From Anoxybacillus tengchongensis (GTDB lineage Bacteria; Bacillota; Bacilli; Bacillales; Anoxybacillaceae), in assembly GCF_014201585.1 (NCBI RefSeq), contig NZ_JACHES010000008.1, positions 62,001-126,000 on the forward strand: a stretch of 64,000 bases of DNA. Direction: 5' to 3'. The notes under the pieces are model-generated. The model saw nothing but the letters and a program-made list of their open reading frames with translations. It was not told the DNA's origin and did no database searches. This document shows, piece after piece, positions 40,586-49,039 of this stretch. Made by a program: the position numbers and the translations under genes. Every line of letters begins with the position of its first letter. Within the stretch, counting starts at the first letter, position 1.

Positions 40586-41614
40586 ATGAAAGCGAGAGTA
40601 GCGATTAACGGGTTCGGACGCATCGGACGTATGGTGTTCCGAAAAGCTATTATGGAGCATGATCTTGACATTGTAGCGATTAATGCGAGCTATCCGCCTG
40701 AAACGTTAGCTCATTTAATAAAATATGATTCAAACCACGGTAAATTTGACGGAGATGTCATTGCGGTTGAAGACGGCTTAATTGTAAACGGAAAAAAAGT
40801 GCAATTGCTAAATTCACGTGATCCACGGCTATTACCATGGGGAGAACTTCAAATCGATATTGTTATTGAAGCAACAGGAAAGTTTAACGCAAAAGAAAAA
40901 GCAATGATGCACGTCGAAGCAGGAGCGAAGCGCGTCATTTTAACTGCACCTGGAAAAGATGAGGACGTAACGATTGTTATGGGAGTCAATGAACATATGC
41001 TTTCTCCAGAGCATGTCGTCATTTCAAACGCTTCATGTACAACAAACTGTTTAGCGCCTGTTGTGAAAGTGCTTGATGAAGCATTTGGGATCGAAAATGG
41101 ACTCATGACAACCGTCCACGCATATACGAACGACCAAAAAAATATTGACAATCCGCATAAAGATTTACGTCGTGCACGTTCATGCGCACAATCGATCATT
41201 CCGACAACAACAGGTGCAGCGAAAGCGTTAGCACTCGTATTACCACATTTAAAAGGGAAAATGCATGGTATGGCGTTGCGCGTTCCGACACCAAACGTTT
41301 CACTTGTTGACGTTGTTGTCGATGTGAAAAAAGACGTCACCGTCGATGAAGTAAACGAGGTGTTTATGCAAGCTGCGCGTGGATCTCTAAAAGGCATTTT
41401 AGACGTGACGATGGAACCGCTTGTGTCGATTGATTTTAATACAAATCCACATTCTGCCATTGTTGATGGGTTGTCCACGATGGTGATCGAAAATCGGAAA
41501 GTAAAAGTATTAGCATGGTATGATAATGAATGGGGCTATTCATGTCGCGTTGTCGACTTAACAAAGCTTGTTGCGAAACAATTGTTAAAAAATGAAACGG
41601 TTACGATGTCATAA
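40586..41614 (+). CDS. gapB: Glyceraldehyde-3-phosphate dehydrogenase, gluconeogenic GapB type
   Basis: A 342-residue NADP-preferring GAPDH used in gluconeogenesis. It has INGFGRIGRM at the N-terminus, the catalytic cysteine C151 in SNASCTTNC and the WYDNEWGYSCRVVDL block. Residues NASYPPE at 33-39 replace the Asp that binds NAD in GapA enzymes, as expected for a GapB. GAAAGGGG precedes the ATG. The CcpN repeat upstream and its place next to speD match B. subtilis. Confidence 0.96.
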   Translation: MKARVAINGFGRIGRMVFRKAIMEHDLDIVAINASYPPETLAHLIKYDSNHGKFDGDVIAVEDGLIVNGKKVQLLNSRDPRLLPWGELQIDIVIEATGKFNAKEKAMMHVEAGAKRVILTAPGKDEDVTIVMGVNEHMLSPEHVVISNASCTTNCLAPVVKVLDEAFGIENGLMTTVHAYTNDQKNIDNPHKDLRRARSCAQSIIPTTTGAAKALALVLPHLKGKMHGMALRVPTPNVSLVDVVVDVKKDVTVDEVNEVFMQAARGSLKGILDVTMEPLVSIDFNTNPHSAIVDGLSTMVIENRKVKVLAWYDNEWGYSCRVVDLTKLVAKQLLKNETVTMS

Positions 41615-41640
41615 CGCTGGGGGTTCCCAGCGTTATTTTT
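41611..41640 (+). terminator. Intrinsic terminator after gapB
   Basis: A perfect 11-bp stem from ATAACGCTGGG and its complement around GGTT, then T5. It overlaps the gapB stop codon. Confidence 0.92.
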
Positions 41641-41672: not shown

Positions 41673-41701
41673 TTGAAAAAAAAATATAAACGAAGTATAC
41701 T
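41673..41701 (+). promoter_or_regulatory. Sigma-A promoter of speD
   Basis: TTGAAA, a 17-base spacer, then TATACT. The predicted start near 41708 leaves a 150-base leader before speD. Confidence 0.75.
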
Positions 41702-41707
41702 ATTTTT

Positions 41708-41856
41708 CGTGAACTTCTTGAACGCGTGGTAATGTGACTACTTAAAGGGTTAGGACCTCTTTGGACTAACTTTCCCCCGTGGTAGTTATACATTCCAAAA
41801 AGCAAAAGAAATTCATCGTTTATTTTTTTTAAAATTCATAAAAGGGGGATACGATC
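41708..41856 (+). other. Possibly structured 5' leader of speD
   Basis: The leader can fold into a long-range stem: AATGT/ACAT (41732-41735 with 41790-41793) and ACTAC/GTAGT (41737-41741 with 41782-41786). This encloses an inner hairpin GTTAG/CTAAC (41749-41753 with 41766-41770). A C5 run at 41774-41778 is complementary to the G5 of the speD ribosome site (41844-41848). I do not recognise a known riboswitch class in it. A T8 run at 41822-41829 follows no GC-rich stem, so it is not an obvious terminator. Confidence 0.4.
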
Positions 41857-42231
41857 ATGGATACAATGGGTCGTCACGTTATCTCAGAACTTTGGGGATG
41901 CGATTTTGATAAGTTGAATGACATGGAGTTTATTGAAAAAACATTTGTTGATGCAGCGTTAAAGTCTGGTGCTGAAATTCGTGAAGTTGCGTTTCATAAA
42001 TTTGCACCACAAGGCGTTAGCGGTGTTGTCATCATTTCTGAATCACATTTAACCATTCACAGTTTTCCTGAACACGGTTATGCTAGCATCGACGTTTACA
42101 CGTGTGGACATTTAGATCCGACGATTGCAGCTGACTATATCGCAGAAGCGTTAGGTGCACAAACGCGCGAAACAATTGAATTGCCTCGTGGTATGGGTCC
42201 AATTGAAATTAAACAAGCAAAAGCTTTATAA
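41857..42231 (+). CDS. speD: S-adenosylmethionine decarboxylase proenzyme
   Basis: Makes decarboxylated SAM, the aminopropyl donor for spermidine. The 124-residue class 1B proenzyme has the self-cleavage site [12 protein letters not shown], with cleavage expected between E62 and S63 to form the pyruvoyl group. Catalytic H68 and C83 (DVYTCG) are present. AAAGGGGGA precedes the ATG. It follows gapB but has its own promoter and a long leader that may control it. Confidence 0.96.
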
Positions 42232-48842: not shown

Positions 48843-48983
48843 AGTAAAAGTAAATACTTGTTTGGAACAAGCAGAAGCACCCGCTTCTCACCTGATCGAC
48901 GCCATATTGGCTGTTAGCAGGTGCGTGACAAAACAAATGTTGTCAGCGAGACGTGTGGGTGTATTATGCCCACACGTTTTTTG
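48843..48983 (+). ncRNA. L20-type ribosomal protein leader of infC operon
   Basis: A long leader with successive hairpins: AGAAGC/GCTTCT (48873-48878 with 48883-48888), CACCTG/CAGGTG (48889-48894 with 48918-48923) and TGACAA/TTGTCA (48926-48931 with 48940-48945). Then comes a strong terminator, ACGTGTGGG with CCCACACGT and T6 (48951-48982). In B. subtilis and relatives L20 binds such a leader that mimics its 23S rRNA site and causes termination before infC. The assignment rests on position, the hairpin series and the terminator. Confidence 0.82.
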
Positions 48984-49039
48984 TTATGTGCGTTCTGCTT
49001 TGACAAACAAGTTTGAAAAAACCGTGGAGGTGGCTAGTT

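Follow-up and report, generated by a model that had tools for sequence, protein, structure and literature searches.

The S-adenosylmethionine decarboxylase gene speD of Anoxybacillus tengchongensis is preceded by a conserved leader that is probably a cis-acting translational switch, shifted by a signal of which the likeliest is a metabolite close to SpeD. Translational control of speD in cis by this leader is highly probable, and direct sensing of a metabolite by the RNA itself is plausible but short of probable. The step catalysed by S-adenosylmethionine (SAM) decarboxylase is the one that commits SAM to spermidine. The conservation of the leader far exceeds what one sequence could show. The leader would constitute a new family within a known kind of control, unusual in having two modules that are kept or lost separately.

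The speD locus and the parts of its leader

The window, as the whole 64,000-nt stretch analysed here is called, belongs to a host assembly of 2.73 Mb in 29 contigs. Within it speD (41857–42231) is located 3' of a gapB-like gene (candidate gapB, 40586–41614, so named in this analysis) that is closed by a terminator at 41611–41636; speD is driven by its own promoter, and a leader of about 150 nt sits between. The first-pass annotation had proposed a structured leader of this length behind a promoter, with stems, an inner hairpin, a C5 tract and a G5 Shine-Dalgarno sequence (SD), all of which can be read in the window as follows.

41673–41701, + strand: speD promoter, with −35 TTGAAA (41673–41678), a 17-nt spacer and −10 TATACT (41696–41701); read from the sequence and a promoter scan
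about 41707–41856, + strand: leader, followed by the speD start codon at 41857
41709–41719, + strand: 5' arm of the outermost helix, GTGAA (41709–41713) and TTCTT (41715–41719); from the minimum free energy (MFE) fold
41727–41735, + strand: P0 5' arm, TGG (41727–41729), a bulged T and AATGT (41731–41735); from sequence and MFE fold
41736–41741, + strand: P1 5' arm, GACTAC (ACTAC at 41737–41741); from covariation in 73 aligned leaders
41744–41782, + strand: near-invariant apical core of 39 nt, AAAGGGTTAGGACCTCTTTGGACTAACTTTCCCCCGTGG; from conservation across related loci
41747–41749, + strand: GGG, an SD-like purine tract that can pair with C5 within the loop; from predicted pairing probabilities
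41749–41770, + strand: P2 hairpin, GTTAG (41749–41753) with CTAAC (41766–41770), plus CC (41756–41757) with GG (41763–41764)
41774–41778, + strand: C5 anti-SD tract, present in 110/110 loci; from the association of tract and SD across lineages
41782–41787, + strand: P1 3' arm, GTAGTT (GTAGT at 41782–41786); from covariation in 73 aligned leaders
41790–41797, + strand: P0 3' arm, ACATT (41790–41794) and CCA; from sequence and MFE fold
41806–41816, + strand: 3' arm of the outermost helix, AAGAA (41806–41810) and TTCAT (41812–41816); from the MFE fold
41844–41848, + strand: G5 SD of speD (G5 in 106/110 loci, G6 in 4/110)
41857–42231, + strand: speD, S-adenosylmethionine decarboxylase, 124 aa, with a PF02675 match at window 41875–42192 (G000:C8:103875–104192)

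The promoter scan returned 6 sites against 4.6 ± 2.3 expected, and in 105 of the 110 related loci a TATACT is present no more than 90 nt ahead of GGGTTAGG. A motif proximal to the transcription start, TTTTTCGTGAACTTCTT (window 41702–41719 and its equivalents), is kept behind the −10 element and is CGTGAA-like in 87/110 loci. The outermost helix accounts in part for this motif, a protein site being another possibility. In the 61 dereplicated loci drawn from those 87 that have the 5' motif, the native partners of the outermost helix pair more stably than permuted combinations do (−6.70 against −6.07 ± 0.18 kcal/mol, with 0 of 2000 permutations as low).

The MFE fold holds the two-part stem, the inner hairpin and the outermost helix, and the stem is the one drawn in the annotation, AATGT/ACAT(T) at 41731–41735/41790–41794 and ACTAC/GTAGT at 41737–41741/41782–41786. 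The folding stability itself is ordinary, with a z-score of −1.28 for the window leader (24 of 200 shuffles are equally stable) and of +0.42 for a leader of the second form described below (L206). The window sequence alone is thus unexceptional, and it is the comparison with relatives that raises the leader above chance.

Conservation, spread and a second form of the leader

With a 171-nt leader query, matches at E ≤ 0.01 were obtained in 131 of the 150 genomes searched in the order, counting one weak match outside the core (G071) and two weak matches with no listed position (G081 and G133). From these genomes 110 loci were taken, and 73 were aligned after dereplication. The core is located 96–127 nt upstream of a SpeD reading frame in 110/110 loci, the distance running from the P1 arm to the start as extrapolated by tblastn. 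Among the 73 leaders 25 columns are invariant and the variable bases are those of the hairpin tip; a locus outside this alignment (L095) carries a paired tip change, C to T and G to A. A small leader peptide was rejected, as the core is conserved in all columns except the tip and the ATG-TGA at 41732–41737 is matched in 14/110 loci.

Covariation was the check that the annotation had proposed for its stems, and P1 does covary. The 73 leaders contain 43 two-sided cells, all within P1; shuffled controls give 13.7 ± 3.4 (0 of 500 as many) and slid partners up to 37, both controls ignoring shared ancestry. In P1 85.6% of the cells are paired, and pairing over the whole structure amounts to 93.5% against 15–54% with partners slid; a second pair count, with a shifted bracket string, served purely as a wrong-register control. 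P1 pairs that show change on both sides number 5, which does not exceed the control (5 is reached in 121 of 500 shuffles, and slid partners give 4–6), and the automatic consensus fold of alignment A1 sets P1 in a different register, with column 14 paired to 54 and not 57. P2 is invariant in the 73 leaders and so allows no covariation test there; by eye, a two-sided change (GTGGG/CTCAC) is seen in one other family and single mismatches in L172, L179, L188, L194 and L196. Taken together, the alignments point to a conserved structured leader with covarying helices, a description that fits P1 and holds more weakly for the other helices. One locus (L180, genome G169) has an insertion of about 50 nt at the variable hairpin tip with the core otherwise kept, and G188 has a model match with similar extra length.

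The regions upstream of speD in 29 genomes that have no strong match to model R1 revealed a second, homologous form of the leader, which follows the same design in a different sequence and has an extra basal module. It consists, in order, of TAGGAACCAGGATTCACT, a variable apical loop, AGTGAATGACGYAGGTCCTAGC, the hairpin P4 and the SD, and a further predicted hairpin, CCGRAAG/CTTTCGG, encloses the ATG, its 3' arm being present in 103 of 104 distinct leaders. In speD2-type loci (for example L206, L212 and L231–L309) this 3' arm falls in Phe-Gly codons. The basal arms occur in at least 119 contigs of named genomes, mainly Paenibacillus, and among the 80 matches listed are also Brevibacillus, Cohnella, Aneurinibacillus, Tumebacillus, Thermobacillus and Chengkuizengella; SpeD follows in 79 of these 80 contigs, the DNA ending in the remaining one (L230). 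Covariation of the basal helices within the basal-module clade is limited to 1 of 12 pairs with two-sided change, with no measure clearly above shuffles, and the base of P4 is invariant. In a locus from outside the class (L350) the design of P0 and P4 is preserved although pairs have changed, with GGGAACC/GGTCCC in place of AGGAACC/GGTCCT and CCCGGC/GCTGGG in place of CCTAGC/GCTAGG.

Most of the loci L170–L189 are intermediates that join the basal module to a window-like apical core. The basal module and the apical core appear to have been kept or lost separately by lineages while the complementarity of loop and SD stayed. Since some lineages keep both modules and others one, the RNA may combine two inputs, and such a history of module swapping would show a switch keeping its function while its aptamer-like parts are exchanged.

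At E ≤ 1, and with weak matches counted, model R1 has matches in 196 of 398 class genomes, and in the window's own genome it gives one match at E 6e-27 and two others at chance level. Over 299 genomes of the phylum strong R1 matches occur in five, all within the class; phylum-wide spread of the apical model was dropped, the 49 other matching genomes all having E ≥ 0.002. A tblastn search with the window's SpeD found no match in 25 weak R1 loci (L143–L167). Model R2 matches 88 of 200 class genomes and 2 of the 299 phylum genomes, one of them (L350) outside the class. The SpeD family PF02675 is present in 292/398 class genomes, and the window's own genome has a second PF02675 match, with no leader match there.

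Co-occurrence at genome level was counted among the same-class genomes G150–G331, with cut-offs of E ≤ 4e-7 for R1 and E ≤ 1e-3 for R2. After nine genomes with only weak SpeD-family matches had been set aside (137 to 128, all assumed to lie within the R2 sample), 122 of the 128 with clear SpeD have an R1 or R2 match, and none of the genomes in this set has an R1 or R2 match without SpeD. With model matches that accompany SpeD so regularly, the question could be addressed directly in a laboratory strain. Of the six SpeD genomes with no model match, G173 (locus L211) has a divergent leader by eye. In the wider sample one genome (G392), in which no SpeD was detected, has a match at the end of a contig.

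At the level of loci, a SpeD start lies behind the leader in 277 of 282 with flanks, near-duplicates counted, and the other five are four weak matches and L230, which is cut by the end of the DNA. Regions with speD and no leader are L200–L203 and L360–L364, of which L200 still has a G6 SD. High-scoring SpeD-family matches in Bacilli with no leader are seen in L360, L362, L363 and L366, some of which adjoin what by eye appear to be basic amino acid decarboxylase genes. Three speD loci of about 3 kb (L205, L209 and L218) contain an RNase P RNA gene, overlapped in L209 by a Bacillaceae-1 RNA match.

Proposed pairing of the loop tract with the Shine-Dalgarno sequence

In the window's clade the C5 tract is present in 110/110 loci and the SD is G5 or G6 in 110/110, which bears out the complementarity noticed at first pass, and the complementarity persists through changes of the loop tract. 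SDs of the GGGGG type are common in these genomes (by a crude count 9 of 49 window ORFs, speD included), so that complementarity in a single genome would be weak evidence, and the GGGGG SD was dropped as proof on its own. The comparison across lineages was made on the 277 leaders with a SpeD start, less L188 (too short) and L200–L203 (without the element), which leaves 272 leaders with 128 distinct cores.

In the second form, tracts that are C-runs (CCCCC, CCCUC or CCCC) usually meet the SD AAGGGGG, and tracts resembling UCUCCU or CUCCUC meet GGAGAGG, GGAGGGG, GGGGAGG or AGGAGA. With tract and SD classes that were sharpened after a first table, 8 of 8 UCUCCU-type tracts go with an A-interrupted SD and 117 of 120 C-run tracts with a G-run (Fisher p about 1e-10, ancestry ignored); the three exceptions (L196, L259 and L296) are by eye complementary in their own way. 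UCUCCU-type tracts are present in five family groups (f58, f63, f65, f73 and f77), and a further locus, L365, sets TCTCCTC against GAGGAGA.

For the tract and SD alone, UCUCCU tracts favour their own SD (−11.46 kcal/mol, against −8.69 kcal/mol with G-run SDs), and C-run tracts discriminate little (−12.24 kcal/mol with their own SD against −11.32 kcal/mol with the other type). Permutation of tract and SD alone across the 128 cores is null (−12.19 against −12.14 ± 0.10, with 558 of 2000 as low), because most pairs are alike in type. An earlier duplex permutation had given −16.94 against −15.98 ± 0.16 and 0 of 2000, which is not reproduced with the SD alone; pairing next to the tract and SD, P4 for example, therefore contributes much to that earlier result.

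Five genomes (G238, G258, G268, G298 and G328) have two speD copies, one with C5/G5 and the other with UCUCCUC/AGGAGG (locus pairs L206/L356, L355/L208, L191/L357, L190/L358 and L217/L359). The UCUCCU tract prefers its own SD over that of the other copy in 4 of the 5, the exception being L190/L358, and in 5/5 the C5 tracts bind the SD of the other copy at least as strongly as their own. The idea that paralogous copies keep mutually exclusive matched pairs is weakened accordingly, as only UCUCCU tracts discriminate, and in 4 of 5 genomes. Since C5 tracts bind either SD, the co-change of tract and SD is one-directional, and the energies in the two-copy genomes suggest that pairing strength is kept through tract changes while the copies are not isolated from each other.

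Transcription attenuation was dropped, as the window scan found no terminator-like site between the leader and the speD start codon. The translational switch proposed at first pass therefore stands as regards translational as opposed to termination control, but draws no support from permutation with the SD alone.

Proposed switch, alternatives and closest systems

In the proposed OFF state C5 (41774–41778) would pair with the G5 SD (41844–41848) as a pseudoknot and thereby block ribosome binding, and in the ON state GGG (41747–41749) would hold C5 inside the loop and leave the SD free. Both pairings would exist in the cell as alternative states, and a signal recognised by a conserved part of the RNA would shift the balance between them.

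Folding predictions are consistent with such a competition. On average, the tract is predicted to pair with upstream loop bases at a probability above 0.4, a cut-off chosen afterwards, in 37 of 38 speD-type and 79 of 90 speD2-type cores (distinct cores, with the hairpin having standard arms); predicted examples are AAAGGG...CCC, CAAGGA...UCCU and CGAGAGA...UCCCUCG. This in-loop pairing gives a predicted competing state in which the SD is free. The second form uses one strand, GGTCCTAG, for both P0 and P4, which are thus mutually exclusive; P4 is predicted to prevail over P0 in 94 of 104 leaders, so that P0 would arise only with assistance. That a helix is conserved although energy alone disfavours it suggests such assistance, for example from a ligand, or early cotranscriptional formation, and the predicted competition can be read either way for the sign of regulation.

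The likeliest signal would be decarboxylated SAM, spermidine or SAM, which would make the leader a riboswitch; that it is a metabolite, which one it is and the sign of the response are guesses. This reading is preferred because of the aptamer-like invariant loops, the metabolic enzyme that is the sole target seen and the Hfq data from B. subtilis described below; a spermidine riboswitch might also be expected before transporter genes or speE, which counts against it. A more specific version is possible but doubtful: an uncatalogued riboswitch class dedicated to SAM decarboxylase, occurring in much of the class Bacilli and in one or more genomes beyond it. Its ligand would again be decarboxylated SAM, spermidine or SAM, and sensing would involve two modules, one nested in the other and each open to separate loss. 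The basal module would be an internal loop, AGG/GACGYA, flanked by AGGAACC/GGTCCT and ATTCACT/AGTGAAT; the apical module would be the core GGACCTCNNNGGA, and the loop tract would supply the anti-SD.

The main rival to the riboswitch reading is autoregulation: the conserved leader would be a binding site for SpeD (or another protein), which would stabilise the SD-blocking fold in the manner of ribosomal proteins acting on their own leaders. The presence of SpeD behind every strong match examined fits a pathway metabolite and equally fits autoregulation, since strong matches with known flanks always precede SpeD, as a dedicated site would, and the very high conservation of the core or the basal module suits a protein site too. 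However, loci with SpeD of about 45% identity to the window's (L171, L174–L187) carry both modules, so that leader type is not strictly SpeD type, and the basal module persists beside quite different apical loops. SpeD is not known to bind RNA, which also counts against autoregulation, and overall we consider autoregulation unlikely.

It is improbable that the leader is a constitutive attenuator whose pairing merely fixes a low translation rate. Such an element would have the advantage that SD pairing requires no ligand and no response to a signal has to be assumed, but a fixed weak SD would not need some 90 nt of conserved RNA, and the near-invariant core, the basal module and the predicted in-loop helix speak for an element that recognises a signal and switches.

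General RNA-binding regulators (CsrA at GGA, or Hfq) or a small RNA on the C tract could in principle control speD instead, a reading credited with little probability. The core contains two GGA motifs, the SD ends in GGGGGA and csrA is present in 143 of 150 genomes of the order; yet the leader match is kept in 7/7 genomes that lack csrA (G022, G034, G052, G053, G066, G100 and G129), a count of presence that makes CsrA control unlikely, and conservation reaches far past the GGA sites. As regards Hfq, the B. subtilis leader is enriched according to Table 2 of PMC3574147, where a 79-nt RNA annotated as 'Unknown or speD leader region' co-purifies with Hfq at an RPKM ratio of 14.1. Enrichment in that study extends across leaders of all signal classes, for which its authors favour nonspecific association of stable aptamers. 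The peaks in known signal-responsive leaders fall, according to the same authors, almost exclusively on the aptamer domain.

The B. subtilis peak shares with the speD leader its place between speD and gapB and its similar size of 79 nt; it stands in that paper as a bare table entry, and the part covered proposes no structure, conservation or function. From its position, it is presumably the same leader. Although the C-rich loop tract and the discrete 79-nt Hfq-bound RNA of that table would suit a leader whose main role is to give rise to a small RNA that acts in trans through a C-rich seed, this is very improbable, as the tract type tracks the SD type of its own gene and no terminator-like site follows the leader in the window.

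Literature searches confined to published main texts gave no description of this speD leader beyond that table entry and no paper on post-transcriptional control of SAM decarboxylase in Bacilli. The main texts of three genome-wide motif surveys mention no speD or spermidine motif, one of them naming potE and odc1 motifs as polyamine-related. A spermidine riboswitch is described in the parts of PMC10853860 covered as a rare SAM-I aptamer variant, with 13 examples and acting as a genetic off switch, and the evidence for earlier polyamine riboswitches is judged unconvincing there. Like the speD leader, it is cis-acting, occurs in Gram-positive bacteria including some Bacilli and precedes polyamine genes (speE, speB, ldcC and speD are named); it has the SAM-I fold, whereas the speD leader has no SAM-I match, is far commoner and is seen only before speD.

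A cmscan search of Rfam 15 assigned the leader to no family, whether in the window or at 20 divergent loci, in agreement with the earlier impression that no classified riboswitch has this sequence; the six matches in the divergent loci are RNase P, tRNA and Bacillaceae-1, all outside the leaders. The SAM-I model gave no leader match, and the Rfam SAM model may miss the rare spermidine variant. The SAM-III (SMK) covariance model likewise had no match in the window leader or the 20 loci. For the leaders of L206 and L171 at E ≤ 10 there were only chance-level matches and none to a SAM family, and membership of a known Rfam family was dropped on this ground.

The riboswitches SAM-III (the SMK box) and preQ1-II control translation by pairing a conserved loop strand with the SD. 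The speD leader would share this pairing of loop strand and SD with them but has no Rfam match and differs from them in sequence and fold. Ribosomal protein leaders, such as the L20 leader (RF00558), are tied to one gene or operon. They resemble the speD leader in this one-gene tie, but the speD locus has no ribosomal protein gene and no family match. The window does contain an L20 leader (RF00558) elsewhere, at 48863–48987 on the + strand, which at 72.2 bits is its sole Rfam match at gathering level.
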